Part shown: piece after piece, positions 42,756 to 62,556 of the stretch
How the letters are laid out: every line of letters starts with the position of its first letter
Numbering within the stretch: position 1 is the stretch's first letter
Source of the DNA: Agrobacterium vitis
GTDB lineage: Bacteria; Pseudomonadota; Alphaproteobacteria; Rhizobiales; Rhizobiaceae
Reading direction: 5' to 3'
DNA: 64,000 nt
Assembly (NCBI RefSeq): GCF_037039395.1
Contig: NZ_CP146242.1
Coordinates: 3,483,001 to 3,547,000, forward strand
Notes under the pieces: generated by a model
What the model was told of the DNA's origin: nothing
Database searches by the model: none
Seen by the model: the letters and a program-made list of their open reading frames with translations, nothing else
Position numbers and translations under genes: made by a program

Positions 42756-43571
42756 CTATCGACGATGTGCCGGGTCGTCCCGGTGAAGCCCGATGGATGC
42801 GACCGGGCCGTCCCGGTCAGGGCGAAAGATGGAAGGGGTTCCGGCTTGGCGGGGTGGCCAGATGGAAATGTCCTTGGTGATGGTGGCGCCGTAGCGCTGT
42901 TTTTCCTCCGGCCGGTCACGGGGGCGCTCGAAAGCCACAACGCGGCTGGCCAGCGTAAAGGCTTCGCGCATGTCATGGGTGACCATGACGACGGTCATCG
43001 GGTTTTCGTGCCAGAGCTTTTTCATCAGCATATGGATTTCGGCGCGAATGCCGGGATCGAGCGCCCCGAAGGGCTCGTCCAGCAGCAGCACTTTCGGCTT
43101 CATGATCAGCGCCTGCGCCAAGGCCAGCCGCTGTTGCATGCCGCCCGAAAGCTGGGCCGGATATTTCGCTTCCGATCCGGCAAGGCCAACGGCGGCAATC
43201 ATCGCGCGGGCCTCATCCACGGCATTGCGCCGGGCGGAACCGAACAGGCGGCCAGCCAATGGTGAGGCGGGCAATTCCTTACCCAGCAGCACGTTGCCCA
43301 GCACGGTGAGATGCGGAAATACCGAATAGCGCTGGAAGACGACGCCGCGATCCGGCCCCGGCTCCTTCGGCAGCGGTTCGCCATCCAGCAGGATGGTGCC
43401 GCGTGTCGGCTGTTCCTGCCCCAGCAGTATGCGCAGAAACGTGCTCTTGCCGCAGCCGGATGGGCCGACCAGAGCCACGAAGCCCCGGGACGCGACTGTT
43501 AGCGAGACGCTCTCCAGCACGATCTGGTCGCCATATTCCTTCCAGATATTGTCGATCTTCAGCCCGCTCAT
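42756..43571 (-). CDS. ABC transporter ATP-binding protein (guanidine/urea-type importer)
   Basis: 271 aa, NitT/TauT family ATPase. Walker A GPSGCGKST, Q-loop in VVFQRYSVFPHLTVLGN, signature QLSGGMQQRLALAQALIMKP, Walker B VLLLDEPFGALDPG, H-loop VMVTHDMREAF. The C-terminal 30 residues are variable. Start overlaps the permease stop (ATGA). Confidence 0.93.
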   Translation of the reverse strand: MSGLKIDNIWKEYGDQIVLESVSLTVASRGFVALVGPSGCGKSTFLRILLGQEQPTRGTILLDGEPLPKEPGPDRGVVFQRYSVFPHLTVLGNVLLGKELPASPLAGRLFGSARRNAVDEARAMIAAVGLAGSEAKYPAQLSGGMQQRLALAQALIMKPKVLLLDEPFGALDPGIRAEIHMLMKKLWHENPMTVVMVTHDMREAFTLASRVVAFERPRDRPEEKQRYGATITKDISIWPPRQAGTPSIFRPDRDGPVASIGLHRDDPAHRR

Positions 43572-45590: not shown

Positions 45591-45707
45591 GGCTAACGAG
45601 GTCTCCCGGGCTTTTATCCCGCCGTGCACCCGACAGGGATGTCTCCCCCGCCGGTGGCTGCTCTCGGACCAGTCACGCTTCTTGCGCCGGAACCCTAGCT
45701 GCCAACT
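45588..45707 (-). promoter_or_regulatory. Guanidine-I (ykkC) riboswitch
   Basis: The minus strand carries the conserved blocks in order: CTAGGGTTCCGG, then ACTGGTCCGAGAG, then ACGGCGGGATAAAAGCCCGG and GGAGACC. GTTGGC at the 5' end and GCCAA at the 3' end can form P1. These blocks are the hallmark of the guanidine-I class. It sits directly before the importer genes and a terminator, so it is an on-switch for guanidine uptake and breakdown. Confidence 0.93.
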
Positions 45708-45731
45708 CTAGCTATAGACTAGCAACTCTTA

Positions 45732-57722: not shown

Positions 57723-57758
57723 AAGCGCCGGACACCCGGAAGGGAATGTTCGGCGCTT
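57723..57758. terminator. Terminator between rarA and the DUF1127 gene
   Basis: 12-bp stem AAGCGCCGGACA/TGTTCGGCGCTT. On the minus strand it is followed by TTATTGTTTTA, so it can end the DUF1127 transcript as well as rarA. Confidence 0.75.
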
Positions 57759-57787
57759 CAAATGTAAATTCAAGCGATCACTTGAGC

Positions 57788-57894
57788 GCTACAGCGCCGT
57801 GCGCCATATATGTCGCACAAAGGTTCGCTGTAGCTCCTTATATCTGCTGCATAATTTTCTCTTTAAACCGATTCCGGTTTAAAGAATTATGCAG
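57788..57894. repeat. Palindromic intergenic repeat, type 2, copy A
   Basis: Two adjoining hairpins: CTACAGCG/CGCTGTAG (57789-57833, inner GTGCG/CGCAC) and CTGCATAATT...CTTTAAACC / GGTTTAAAG AATTATGCAG (57847-57894). The same pair recurs inverted at 60861-60960. Confidence 0.8.
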
Positions 57895-57898
57895 TAGA

Positions 57899-58048
57899 TC
57901 AGCCAGCCTTGACGGCGTGGCGGGCAACGCGACGGATGTCGTCACGGCCAATGCCGAGGTCGTGCAATTCGCGGTCCGACATGCGGCCCAGTTCAGAAAT
58001 GGTCTGACGATATTTGCGCCAGTTGGTCAGCGAGCGAGTGATGTTCAT
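57899..58048 (-). CDS. DUF1127 small basic protein
   Basis: 49 residues: starts MNITRSLTNWRKYRQTISEL and continues GRMSDRELHDLGIGRDDI then RRVARHAVKAG. This is the full DUF1127 motif (arginine-rich helix with SDRELHDLGI and GRDDIR). In Rhodobacter a DUF1127 protein (CcaF1) binds RNA and helps mature the neighbouring CcsR sRNAs. Ribosome site AAAAAAGGCAAGACC precedes the ATG. Strand matches the hairpin RNAs upstream. Confidence 0.88.
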   Translation of the reverse strand: MNITRSLTNWRKYRQTISELGRMSDRELHDLGIGRDDIRRVARHAVKAG

Positions 58049-58304
58049 GGTCTTGCCTTTTTTCAGCGTTTGCTGGCAAATCGGCCAGCCCTCATGTGTT
58101 GAGGTGAATATATGCGCTGCGGCATAAATTATGAAGTGTCATTCCAGCGGAGCACCTATGCCGTGAATGCATGGCATCTCAATGATTTGTTAAGAAGTGT
58201 CTATTTCTCGAGCAAATTCGGCTCAACGCGCTCTGGCGGGTGAAATTTTGCGTTGGAGCGGTTTTAGTCGTTCATGAGCCATGGAGAAGAAGAGGCTGAA
58301 CACA

Positions 58305-58425
58305 ATAACGCCCACCGGGGGAGGAGATCCGGTGGGCGTCATTTGAAATGGGCGACAACTGGGAGGAGGAGGGTTGTCAGCCCGTTCGGCGCGCATTGGG
58401 AGGAGGAGTATGCTGCACCGAAACT
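58305..58425 (-). ncRNA. CcsR/cuckoo-type sRNA locus, three CCUCCUCCC hairpins
   Basis: On the minus strand three hairpins in a row each expose a CUCCUCCC-type loop: H1 58385-58422 (TTCGGTGC..., loop CTCCTCCTCCC), H2 58351-58382 (GACAAC/GTTGTC, loop CCTCCTCCTCCC), H3 58308-58339 (ACGCCCACCGG/CCGGTGGGCGT, loop with CTCCTCCCC). Loop sequences complement the ribosome binding consensus. This is the hallmark of CcsR/cuckoo RNAs. A DUF1127 gene follows on the same strand, as in Rhodobacter. Confidence 0.8.
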
Positions 58426-58647
58426 TGTTTTCAGCTTGCGCTGTCTGCATCCGTAAACACTGATGTTCTCGTCTGCTGTTGGTATTCATCCTACCGTTTT
58501 TACGGGTTTTGTGCAGTGCGATATTATCATGAGAGCTATGCGTTTGATGCATAAATTAACTGTGGCTCGTCGAACGGCCCATTGTCGATCTGATGTTCTC
58601 GCTGCTGCGGCACTGAAAACGGGTTTTCGACATTGGTGAAAAGGCGC

Positions 58648-58783: not shown

Positions 58784-59890
58784 ATGTATCGGGCGAAACT
58801 GAAGAAAGATCTTGATCGCTGGACCGGTATGGGCCTGATCAGTAAACAGGCCGCCGAGGCGATGATCGAGGATCACGATGGCCGGGCGGGTAATTTCAAT
58901 ATCGGCGGCGTGTTGCTCATGTTGTCGGCGGTGCTGGTCTCTGCTGCCATTCTGCTGCTTGTGGCGGCTAATTGGCAGGCCATTCCGCGTCTGGTGAAGG
59001 TTTCTGCTCTGATTCTGCTGATCTGGGGCTTTCACGGCGGCGCGGCCTTCTGCCTCGCTCAAGGGCGGCAGGCGTCGGGCCATGCTCTTCTGGTGCTGGG
59101 AGCGGCCAGTTTCGGCGCGGCGCTGTCGCTGGTTGGCCAGCTGTATCACCTGTCGGGCGACCTTCTCGATCTGGTTTATCTGTGGATCGGCATGGCGAGC
59201 CTGTCCTGCCTGCTGTTTCGCTCCGGCGCGATGGCGGCTTTCGTTGGTGTCCTGGGGCTGGGCTTGGCGGCAGCAACCCTTGATCAGTTCAATTTTTCCT
59301 GGATGCCGGAAACGGTGTGGACGCCGCCGCTGCTGGCTGTGCTCGTTGCCGGGCTGGCGCTTTTCACCGGAAACATCCGGGTTCAGCATATTTCTGGTCT
59401 GCTGATTCTTGGCTGGCTGGGCTGGATCTATGCCGAAATCATGCAGCCCGGCCTTGCCATGGCCTATGTGGCTTTCGGTATTGCCGCATTTGCGGCGTCG
59501 GCTCTGCCGCAGTTTGCCCGACATATGTCCGTGCAGATTGCCGGTTTTCATGCCTTGCTGATGGCGGCAATGGGCCTTTTCATCCTCAATATAGACTATG
59601 ATCACGGCTTTCCGCTGGCCCTGGTGGCCGTTACGGCAGTCGCCACCTCCATTGCTGCCCTTACGCTTCGCGGCCGTCACGATGGCGTGGTGAGGGCGTT
59701 GGCCTATCTGATTTTCGCAGGCGAGATCCTCTATCTGTCCTTTACAACGATCGATTCTTTGCTGGGCACATCGGGCTTTTTCCTGATCGCCGGTGTGATT
59801 GTCGCTTTGCTGGCCCTCGGCGTCAGCCAGATGGAAAAGCTGCTGGGCACGCGCAAGCGTCCGATGATGGTTGAAGGACGGGAGCGGTGA
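58784..59890 (+). CDS. DUF2157 membrane protein
   Basis: 368 aa with a cytoplasmic N-terminus (KKDLDRWTGMGLISKQAAEA) followed by about ten hydrophobic helices. Family function unknown, but it usually precedes a GDYXXLXY protein, as here. Start at 58784 has GGAG five bases ahead; an ATG three bases earlier is too close. Overlaps the next gene. Confidence 0.85.
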   Translation: MYRAKLKKDLDRWTGMGLISKQAAEAMIEDHDGRAGNFNIGGVLLMLSAVLVSAAILLLVAANWQAIPRLVKVSALILLIWGFHGGAAFCLAQGRQASGHALLVLGAASFGAALSLVGQLYHLSGDLLDLVYLWIGMASLSCLLFRSGAMAAFVGVLGLGLAAATLDQFNFSWMPETVWTPPLLAVLVAGLALFTGNIRVQHISGLLILGWLGWIYAEIMQPGLAMAYVAFGIAAFAASALPQFARHMSVQIAGFHALLMAAMGLFILNIDYDHGFPLALVAVTAVATSIAALTLRGRHDGVVRALAYLIFAGEILYLSFTTIDSLLGTSGFFLIAGVIVALLALGVSQMEKLLGTRKRPMMVEGRER

Positions 59891-60471
59891 TGATGCAGCG
59901 CAATCATATTTTTCGTCTGGCTTCCGCTGCGATTCTTCTGGCTGCCCTGCAAACGGCGGCGATTGGCTACCAGATTGGTGAGCGGGCCAATATTTTGCGC
60001 AACGGCCAGGAAGTCCTGTTGCGGACTGAGGCCGTCGATCCGCGCGATCTGCTGCGCGGCGATTATGTCGTGCTGAATTATTCGATTTCCCGCATTCCTG
60101 AAGAGAAGATCGTCGGTCCTCGTCCATTGCGCCGGCAGGATGTTCGCCTGCATGTGCGCGTTGTGCCGCAGGCCGATGGCTTTGCCACGGTCGAAGAGGC
60201 ATCGGTCGCCGATCTGTTGCCAAGGCCCGGAAGCGTGGTGCTGTTAAGCGAGCCACTGTCCTTTCCGTCGCCTCTGGCGCCCGGAGACAGTTTGATCGTG
60301 CATTACGGGATCGAGCGATTCTATGTTCCCGAAGGCGAGGGTGGCGGTATCGAGGCACAGCGCAATCAAGGTGCGGTCTCAATCGCCATACGAGTGTCTT
60401 CTGCGGGGCGGGCGCAGATCCGGCAATTGTTCGTTGCGGGCCAGCCGGTTTACCGAGAACCGGATTTTTGA
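59890..60471 (+). CDS. GDYXXLXY domain protein
   Basis: 193 aa, anchored by one N-terminal helix (RLASAAILLAALQTAAIGYQ). The signature is RGDYVVLNYSISRIP. Family members sit in operon with DUF2157 proteins and are thought to be membrane-bound; activity unknown. The ATG at 59890 shares a base with the DUF2157 stop. Confidence 0.85.
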   Translation: MMQRNHIFRLASAAILLAALQTAAIGYQIGERANILRNGQEVLLRTEAVDPRDLLRGDYVVLNYSISRIPEEKIVGPRPLRRQDVRLHVRVVPQADGFATVEEASVADLLPRPGSVVLLSEPLSFPSPLAPGDSLIVHYGIERFYVPEGEGGGIEAQRNQGAVSIAIRVSSAGRAQIRQLFVAGQPVYREPDF

Positions 60472-60605: not shown

Positions 60606-60690
<85 letters not shown>

Positions 60691-61074: not shown

Positions 61075-62556
61075 ATGCAGGTTATCGAAACGCTCGCTGA
61101 AGGGCTGAAGCGCGAACTCAAGGTCATCATTCCGGCCGCTGACATGGAAGCGCAGATGAATGAGCGCCTTGCCGACGTCAAGGACAAGGTTCGCATCAAC
61201 GGTTTCCGTCCGGGCAAGGTACCGGCAGGTCACCTGAAGAAGATGTATGGCAAGTCGGTCATGGCCGAACTGGTCAACGAAATCGTTCGCGACCGTCCCT
61301 CCGCTATCCTGTCTGAACGTGGCGAAAAGTCCGCGACCCAGCCGGAAGTGGCGATGACCGAGGACGAGGCAGAAGCCGACAAGATCCTCAATGCGCAGGC
61401 CGATTTCGAATTCACGCTTGCCTATGAAGTCATTCCCGCTATCGAATTGAAGCCGGTTGACGGCATCAAGATCGTTCGCGAAGTCGTTGAAGTGTCGGAA
61501 GACGAAGTCAACGAGCAGATCATGAAGATCGCCGAAAGCGCGCGGACCTTCGCCACCAAGGACGGTGCGGCTGCTGATGGCGACCGCGTCACCATGGATT
61601 ACCTGGGCAAGGTCGATGGCGTTCCCTTCGACGGCGGCAAGGACGAAGACGCAGAGCTGGTCATCGGCTCCAACCGCTTCATTCCCGGCTTTGAAGAGCA
61701 GTTGGTTGGCCTAAAGGCTGGTGACGAAAAGGTCATCAACGTGACCTTCCCGACCGAATATCCGGCTGCAAACCTGGCTGGCAAGGACGCCACCTTCGAC
61801 ATCACCGTCAAGGAAGTTGCGGCTCCCGCTGAAACCGAGATCAATGACGAGCTGGCCACCAAGCTCGGCCTGGAATCGGTCGACAAGCTGAAGGAAATCG
61901 TCCGCGGCCAGATCGAAAGCCAGTACGGCAATGTCACGCGCCAGAAGATCAAGCGTCAGATCCTTGATCAGCTGGACGAGATGTACAAGTTCGAGGCGCC
62001 TTCGCGTCTGGTCGATGCCGAGTTCGACAATATCTGGCGCCAGATCAACACCGATCTGCAACAGTCCGGCAAGACCTTCGAAGATGAAGAGACCACGGAA
62101 GACGCCGCTCGCGAAGAATACCGCGCCCTGGCTGAACGTCGCGTTCGTCTCGGCCTGGTTCTTTCCGAAATCGGTGAAAAGGCCGCTATCGATGTGACCG
62201 AGGAAGAAATGCAGCGCGCGCTTTACGCCCAGTTGCAGCAGTTCCCGGGCCAGGAAAAGCAGATCATCGACTTCTTCCGCAACACGCCCGGCGCTTCTGC
62301 CTCGCTGCGCGCTCCGATCTTTGAAGAAAAGGTCATGGACAAGCTGATTTCCGAGGTCAATGTTACGGACAAGACCGTGACCAAGGAAGAACTGCTGGCC
62401 GAGGACGAAGACGGCGACGACACCAAGCCTGCCAAGAAGTCGGCCAAGAAGAAGGCTGCCAAGGCTGAAGACGCTTCCGCTGAAGGCGAAGAAGCCGCTC
62501 CGAAGAAAAAGGCTGCTGCGAAGAAGAAGGCTGCTGACGAAGGCGACGCTGAATAA
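61075..62556 (+). CDS. tig: Trigger factor
   Basis: Ribosome-bound chaperone and prolyl isomerase, 493 aa. Ribosome-binding loop [24 protein letters not shown] domain around 160-250 ([20 protein letters not shown]), then the C-terminal chaperone domain. The last 50 residues are an Asp/Glu plus Lys/Ala-rich tail ([13 protein letters not shown]), seen in rhizobial homologues. Followed by a strong terminator. Confidence 0.96.

Follow-up and report, generated by a model that had tools for sequence, protein, structure and literature searches.

The window analysed here, a 64,000-nucleotide stretch of Agrobacterium vitis contig NZ_CP146242.1, carries on its minus strand a small RNA of the Rfam family ar14 and, downstream of it, a short DUF1127 gene, with tig and other plus-strand genes on the far side of the RNA. 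The features of the locus are as follows.

57899..58048, minus strand: DUF1127 gene (PF06568), 49 aa, corresponding by synteny to S. meliloti SMc02051
58107..58127, minus strand: PhaR(AniA)-like site in the DUF1127 promoter, core CGCAGCGCA, lying over the -10 (14.0 bits)
58107..58135, minus strand: sigma-70 promoter predicted for the DUF1127 gene, TTCATA-N17-TATATT, start at about 58100 (pattern scan, 9/12 matches)
58158..58171, minus strand: LsrB/VtlR-type box TGCA-N6-GCAT in the DUF1127 promoter (exact match)
58303..58426, minus strand: ar14 sRNA, whole RF02344 model (cmscan, 105.8 bits)
58304..58343, minus strand: ar14 hairpin 3, loop with CUCCUCCC, terminator-like stem, then a poor U-tract, GUUAUUGUG (RNA fold, covarying stem)
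58350..58383, minus strand: ar14 hairpin 2, loop with CUCCUCCUCCC (RNA fold, covarying stem)
58385..58422, minus strand: ar14 hairpin 1, loop with CUCCUCCUCCC (RNA fold, letters checked)
58488..58493, minus strand: predicted ar14 -10, TAGGAT, start at about 58480 (read from the box position and relatives; absent from the promoter-scan list)
58506..58526, minus strand: PhaR(AniA)-like site in the ar14 promoter, core CGCACTGCA (17.4 bits)
58538..58551, minus strand: LsrB/VtlR-type box TGCA-N6-GCAT in the ar14 promoter (exact match; motif from PMC10746234)
58781..59890, plus strand: DUF2157 gene (PF09925), divergent neighbour and synteny marker
59887..60471, plus strand: GDYXXLXY gene (PF14345), synteny marker
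60606..60687, plus strand: tRNA gene (Rfam RF00005)
61075..62556, plus strand: tig, trigger factor (Trigger_N/Trigger_C), synteny marker that also flanks NfeR1 in S. meliloti

We identified the minus-strand segment 58303-58426 as ar14 (RF02344) at 105.8 bits, over the gathering cut-off of 58.8 (E 1.6e-18), with the 124-nt match running through the model from end to end. A sequence-only reading had placed three adjacent minus-strand hairpins here, and all three fold at those places, hairpin 1 identically and hairpins 2 and 3 with each end shifted by 1 and 4 nt, respectively. The minimum free energy of the region was -57.3 kcal/mol against -29.2 (sd 2.9) for shuffled sequences (z -9.6), and none of 200 shuffles was as good. 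The three loops are of the CUCCUCC type; loops 1 and 2 carry the full CCUCCUCCC motif, and loop 3 is one base short of it. The stem of hairpin 3 is strong, and a terminator scan of the region lists none. The window RNA has the ar14 architecture of three hairpins with such loops and covarying stems, loop 3 being one base short. The broader claim of the sequence-only reading, an anti-Shine-Dalgarno (aSD) sRNA of the cuckoo/CcsR kind beside a DUF1127 gene, held up against ar14 at 105.8 bits and PF06568 at 57.2 bits. Membership in CcsR proper was rejected by the covariance model, with CcsR1 (RF02791) scoring 33.4 bits under a cut-off of 65.3. In kind the feature is ordinary: both its sRNA family and this type of locus were known before. 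Two further reading frames at the locus, a 109-aa frame across ar14 (58223-58552, minus strand), whose listed start codon lies inside the LsrB-type box, and an ORF beside ar14 at 57746-58102 on the plus strand, are without Pfam match and were set aside.

Compensatory changes in the stems of relatives had been proposed earlier as a test of the hairpins, and these changes were found. Thirty-four ar14 copies were aligned, of which this genome supplied 5 and relatives 29; 20 of the 23 pairs in hairpins 2 and 3 were changed on both sides, and 96.5% of cells held standard pairs. The covariation score was 0.616 against a shuffle mean of 0.266, a value that 0 of 500 shuffles reached, and it dropped to 0.06-0.14 when the pairing partners were slid. 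This count covers hairpins 2 and 3 only, because RNAalifold on the alignment did not recover hairpin 1. We then compared loop placement without an alignment in 80 named loci, the best 80 of at least 382 relatives and all close to the window DUF1127 protein, so that conservation among them partly reflects shared ancestry. An aSD array was counted where at least two exact CCTCCTCC motifs lay within 60 nt, a rule that can miss copies. The 72 arrays found at 60 of the 80 loci hold 210 CCTCCTCC motifs, and 201 of these lay wholly in hairpin loops; in controls in which the motifs were kept and the letters between them shuffled, 116 of 1050 did so.

The DUF1127 ORF scored 57.2 bits for PF06568 (cut-off 23.3), and its product is 96% identical to two named Agrobacterium vitis records. 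Its start codon lies 254 nt from the ar14 match on the same strand, in agreement with the earlier description of a 49-residue DUF1127 gene about 260 nt downstream. Among the 80 named loci, tig is upstream and divergent in 79 and DUF2157 is present in 51; an aSD array stands upstream of the DUF1127 gene in 60 (49 single, 10 double and 1 triple), and the hairpins-first order with tig upstream is seen in 59. The other 20 loci, several of them from the Agrobacterium tumefaciens group (L113, L114, L119-L121, L123, L124 and others), are without an aSD array by the exact-motif rule and retain both tig and the DUF1127 promoter box.

This arrangement matches a locus described in S. meliloti. NfeR1, a symbiosis RNA and the founding member of ar14, was found there as candidate C14 beside SMc02051, between that gene and the divergent tig (PMC2780559). 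A second RNA, sm7' (SmelC398), lies in the same intergenic region, starting 369 nt before the NfeR1 (sm7) start (PMC2573895, PMC2873474); its detection was still awaited in 2008 (PMC2573895), and SmelC398 is present in a 2010 sequencing list (PMC2873474). Similarly, a locus of Sinorhizobium psoraleae (L159) has two ar14 copies 364 nt apart before its DUF1127 gene, and the leader of the first is the longer of the two. The SMc02051 promoter letters printed for position -122 (PMC12542648) recur at 20 of 21 places at -122 in L159 and at 19 of 21 at -118 in a further relative (L146), and those of the second printed site, at -76, match 15 of 21 letters at -76 in L159. One paper names SMc02051 and SMc02052 as DUF1137 (PMC8343143), which is taken to be a slip for DUF1127. 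From synteny and promoter letters, as distinct from protein sequence, we infer that SMc02051 is the DUF1127 gene at the nfeR1 locus; given the shared tig synteny and these promoter letters, the window therefore holds the nfeR1 locus.

The window RNA shares with NfeR1 (Smr14C2, SmelC397) and sm7' the Rfam family, the three aSD hairpins, the tig/SMc02051 locus, an LsrB-type box predicted to lie at about -72 and predicted targets rich in ABC transporters. Unlike the S. meliloti tandem, the window has one ar14 copy. The promoter element CACTGCACA is found at 11 of 11 first tandem copies, 0 of 11 last copies and 37 of 50 single copies including that of the window; the window ar14 thus corresponds to the sm7' (SmelC398) type and not to NfeR1 itself, and its promoter, which has a PhaR-like site, is sm7'-like. 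It also differs from both RNAs in its leader, which would run for about 54 nt up to the ar14 model if the start has been predicted correctly, in the shorter third loop and in a poorer terminator tail. No paper treating NfeR1 together with DUF1127 was found in the open-licence literature, a scope outside which the core cuckoo-RNA, NfeR1 and CcaF1 papers fall; that the nfeR1 locus itself is an RNA-DUF1127 pair was not found there and is new with respect to the literature searched.

We further studied how often the two kinds of feature stand together. The genome (6.04 Mb, 5 contigs) has 5 ar14 copies and 6 DUF1127 genes over cut-off, and for three of these ar14 copies the distance to a DUF1127 domain on the same strand is 248-266 nt. 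If the five copies were placed at random, three of them would fall within 300 nt with a probability of about 6e-9. Two of the three paired copies are gene-first (C4:888 kb and C5:169 kb) and the one in the window is RNA-first; the remaining copies, L001 and L004, lack an exact box as well as any DUF1127 match up to 1.5 kb away. Weaker ar14 matches at C2:3319879 (29.5 bits), C2:3395049 (19.7) and C2:3725329 (16.8) were below cut-off and were excluded as copies. At L002 (C4:888 kb), L004 (C4:1190 kb) and L005 (C5:169 kb) an extra CCTCCTCCC occurs in a likely hairpin directly 5' of the ar14 match, which probably brings the number of aSD loops in these RNAs to four.

Of 61 genomes drawn from the family, 60 gave an ar14 match at E <= 1e-4 (56 over cut-off) and 58 a DUF1127 match at E <= 1e-9. 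Among the 150 best ar14 matches and the 129 DUF1127 matches listed at E <= 1e-9, 91 ar14 copies and 85 DUF1127 genes were within 1.5 kb of the other kind, and the adjacency occurred in 50 of the 55 genomes having listed ar14 matches. CIN1-type adjacency, an aSD RNA beside a short DUF1127 gene, is thus a property of the window and of 91 of the 150 listed copies. The 126 listed pairs within 1.5 kb, of which one cluster may supply several, comprised 80 gene-then-ar14, 45 ar14-then-gene and 1 on opposite strands. Many of the listed gene-then-RNA clusters are tight, their gaps of 27-45 nt being what one expects of a CcsR-like 3' end, and others are wider; gaps between neighbouring listed RNA-then-gene pairs are 168-439 nt, with one exception of 58. 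The hairpins-first order, which had been set apart from the Rhodobacter arrangement, is therefore no anomaly but common, with 45 against 80 of the 126 listed pairs and 59 of the 80 named loci. In a class-wide draw, 3 of 190 genomes matched ar14 at E <= 1e-6, and only the present one was over cut-off. The recurrence of the pair in both orders suggests a connection between RNA and protein that holds even without a shared transcript.

Each of the two units has an LsrB/VtlR-type box in its promoter, and the predicted starts at about 58480 (ar14) and 58100 (DUF1127) each fall about 71 nt after the box. Within 110-160 nt before the ATG, the DUF1127 box occurs with at most one mismatch at all 80 named loci and exactly at 44, against 4% and 0.3% of control intervals, respectively. 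A box with at most one mismatch precedes 62 of 72 ar14 arrays in a 280-nt interval, against 112 of 726 controls of equal width. Both units therefore carry a conserved box of the LsrB/VtlR regulon type, as judged by its letters. LsrB is reported to bind the NfeR1 promoter at TGCA-N6-GCAT, from -72 to -60 (PMC10746234), and the VtlR consensus is given as GCAT-N3-TG-N3-T (PMC7486931, PMC8844928), which the extended form GCATRGGTG fits as far as the TG. VtlR is also reported to activate three DUF1127 genes in Brucella (PMC12595884) and to bind the promoter of A. tumefaciens atu1667, the ortholog of two VtlR-activated Brucella genes, in circuits that differ between species (PMC7486931). Genome-wide there are 15 occurrences of TGCA-N6-GCAT-N3-TG and none of its reverse; 4 of the 15 are at ar14/DUF1127 loci, including the DUF1127 gene of the window, and the window ar14 box has TC for TG and so falls outside the 15. 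A LysR gene stands beside the tandem suhB/AbcR RNAs of this genome, the place expected for lsrB. On the minus strand, the 13-mers GCGAGAACATCAG (58602-58590) and ACGAGAACATCAG (58472-58460) are a near-identical stretch occurring twice, once upstream of the box and once in the predicted ar14 leader.

A second kind of site was identified with a PhaR weight matrix built from 17 S. meliloti sites rated EMSA-efficient, whose training scores range from 16.2 to 27.7 bits; the S. meliloti PhaR(AniA) motif is given in PMC12542648. Both promoters of the window contain a candidate PhaR palindrome (YGCRNYGCR), that of ar14 at 17.4 bits and that of the DUF1127 gene at 14.0, just under the training range. 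At 8 bits, a threshold below that range, the matrix picked out such sites in 58 of 60 first-or-only ar14 promoters, in 2 of the 12 promoters of later copies and in 61 of 80 DUF1127 promoters, against 17 of 726 controls of 160 nt and 7 of 726 of 80 nt. At 16.2 bits the counts were 49 of 60, 0 of 12 and 17 of 80, with 0 of 726 controls at either width. DUF1127 promoters with a site numbered 56 of 60 beside an array and 5 of 20 without one, by statistics that ignore kinship. The other ar14 copies of the genome scored 22.2, 20.0, 17.3 and 5.4 bits (the last being L004), and a fourth DUF1127 gene scored 10.7. One gene of the genome encodes PHB_acc_N (PhaR). SMc02051 itself is listed in the PhaR-repressed module 1 with two motif copies, its site being predicted, and neither NfeR1 nor SmelC397 is named in that paper (PMC12542648). 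In PMC10746234, AniA appears once, in a reference title, and PhaR is absent; AniA is named for MmgR in PMC7143759. In the open-licence literature as delimited above, PhaR control of ar14 RNAs was not found either. Nor was it found there that the two units share conserved LsrB/VtlR-type and PhaR-like sites; these are likely control sites of the same two regulators at both genes, which makes a new regulatory prediction.

Altogether, we propose, with a probability of roughly 75%, that the conserved tig/nfeR1 locus encodes here a trans-acting ar14 sRNA and a DUF1127 protein as two neighbouring members of one regulon, each with a transcript of its own. Several results count against this reading. 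The ar14 -10, TAGGAT, is weak and the U-tract after hairpin 3 poor; most NfeR1 copies of S. meliloti escape reliable detection on northern blots; VtlR/LsrB circuits reportedly vary from species to species; the later tandem copies, of NfeR1 type, mostly lack a PhaR-like site; with the PhaR matrix, the gene-first loci reach only -3.8 and -6.5 bits at their DUF1127 promoters; and the mapped start of SMc02051, 37 nt before its ATG, does not match a start about 71 nt after the box.

The sequence-only reading had pointed to Rhodobacter; in R. sphaeroides the aSD RNAs CcsR1-4 stand beside the DUF1127 gene of CcaF1 (CIN1 locus, PMC10253847), and a similar operon in the window would yield one precursor cut by RNase E and the DUF1127 protein. 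Hairpins and gene are indeed close and on one strand, compact gene-then-ar14 clusters exist among the matches listed in relatives, and, because the U-tract after hairpin 3 is poor, some read-through from ar14 into the DUF1127 gene may occur. However, in Rhodobacter the gene comes first in one RpoHI/RpoHII operon that gives four processed RNAs, whereas in the window the RNA, of a different Rfam family by the CcsR1 score, comes first with its own predicted promoter and is separated from the gene by the 254-nt gap. Moreover, the gene has its own conserved box with promoter-like -35 and -10 sequences. The pattern scan that lists its promoter is weak evidence alone, since 3 sites were found in the region against 1.5 (sd 1.4) in shuffles, and its -10-like TATATT (58112-58107) recurs in relatives. 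The start of the S. meliloti counterpart, mapped 37 nt before the ATG (by subtraction from Table 3 of PMC12542648), also argues against one transcript for hairpins and gene, and we regard such an operon as unlikely. We give still less credit to a second alternative, in which the hairpins would be a cis-acting leader, or attenuator, of the DUF1127 mRNA. S. meliloti duf1127_1 is controlled by such a leader, a C-rich RNA upstream of a DUF1127 gene with its start 279 nt upstream and C-rich codons (PMC12218461), and the 109-aa frame happens to be open across ar14 in the window. That leader, though, acts through a translated uORF with premature transcription termination, not through an aSD hairpin array; S. 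meliloti makes ar14 as a free-standing RNA, 115-124 nt long (PMC2873474, PMC2780559), the 109-aa frame would begin before the predicted transcript start, and a box and a -10-like sequence stand before the DUF1127 gene. Pairing of ar14 with the ribosome binding site of its own DUF1127 gene (RNAduplex, 80 loci) averaged -6.6 kcal/mol against -5.0 (sd 3.3) for shuffles and was only -2.0 kcal/mol in the window, leaving a cis effect without clear support.

It is also improbable, to about the same degree as the operon, that the window ar14 is a degenerate, silent paralog without current function. The shortened loop 3, the weak -10 and the poor terminator tail would fit such a copy, and only 1 of 6 NfeR1 copies in S. 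meliloti was reliably detected on northern blots (PMC7143759). Against it, the stems are intact, the covariance score is 105.8 bits and the promoter elements are conserved in related loci.

For the separately transcribed pair, the loops suggest a mode of action, and the earlier proposal that they can pair with ribosome binding sites was supported by the matches in the genome. The pattern GGGAGGAG-N4-9-ATG occurs at 25 places, against 2 for the reversed pattern. We kept 23 of the 25 ORFs, dropping one antisense to ar14 itself and one 19-aa frame, and 9 of the 23 encode predicted ABC components (7 solute-binding proteins, 1 ABC ATPase and 1 permease). The control Shine-Dalgarno pattern AAAGGAGA occurs at 45 places, against 4 for its reversed pattern; 30 of the 45 were fetched and 20 of the 30 ORFs scanned, the ten left out being 25-138 aa except one of 210 aa. 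No ABC component was found among these 20 scanned ORFs (Fisher p 0.0017 against the targets). These matches support ABC transport as the predicted target class of the window ar14. Pairing of any of the three NfeR1 loops with a ribosome binding site is reported to block translation, and ABC-transporter mRNAs are prominent among the predicted NfeR1 targets (PMC10746234, PMC7143759). The AbcR1/AbcR2 RNAs (suhB, RF00519) are likewise reported under LsrB/VtlR, with aSD pairing and ABC-transporter targets; they differ from ar14, a family characterised by Hfq-independent, trans-acting RNAs of about 120 nt, in being another, Hfq-binding RNA family encoded beside lsrB.

The box about 71 nt before each predicted start would mediate activation, and the PhaR(AniA)-like site observed in each promoter would mediate repression. 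Through its exposed CUCCUCC loops, ar14 would base-pair with ribosome binding sites rich in GGAGG and so keep mRNAs, chiefly those of ABC-transporter components, from being translated, as the matches predict here and as reported for S. meliloti NfeR1. The DUF1127 protein would be co-expressed and may aid RNA processing like CcaF1 or act via proteins such as PhoR. CcaF1 binds RNA and takes part in the processing of the CcsR RNAs (PMC10253847); in A. tumefaciens, the short proteins of this family reportedly target PhoR, and RNA binding by DUF1127 is contested (PMC12501420).

A more specific version, which we put at somewhat less than even odds, is that ar14 and DUF1127 form a two-part switch reading LsrB/VtlR and, via PhaR, carbon storage. 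PhaR is taken to be released when PHB accumulates. If the switch exists, stored carbon would raise the aSD RNA and shut ABC-type uptake genes, and the DUF1127 protein would rise too. PhaR control of ar14 would couple a translational block on nutrient uptake directly to carbon storage. The locus connects three lines of work, namely the NfeR1 locus, the disputed role of DUF1127 in RNA or kinase binding, and the PHB regulator PhaR; the pairing of RNA and protein in both gene orders bears on DUF1127 protein function.

Three minor observations concern other parts of the window. Directly 3' of the DUF1127 gene lies a dispersed palindromic repeat (57825-57904, minus strand) that has 61 strand-matches at about 40 places in the genome, two of them near the ar14/DUF1127 locus at C4:888 kb, and that resembles Brucella CI27 below cut-off. 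A Guanidine-I riboswitch (45601-45709) and a Guanidine-II riboswitch (42770-42819) stand on the minus strand less than 3 kb apart. An rpsB-family RNA (RF01815; 17366-17477, plus strand), at 44.7 bits against a cut-off of 40, reaches the start of a ribosomal S2 gene (L212).
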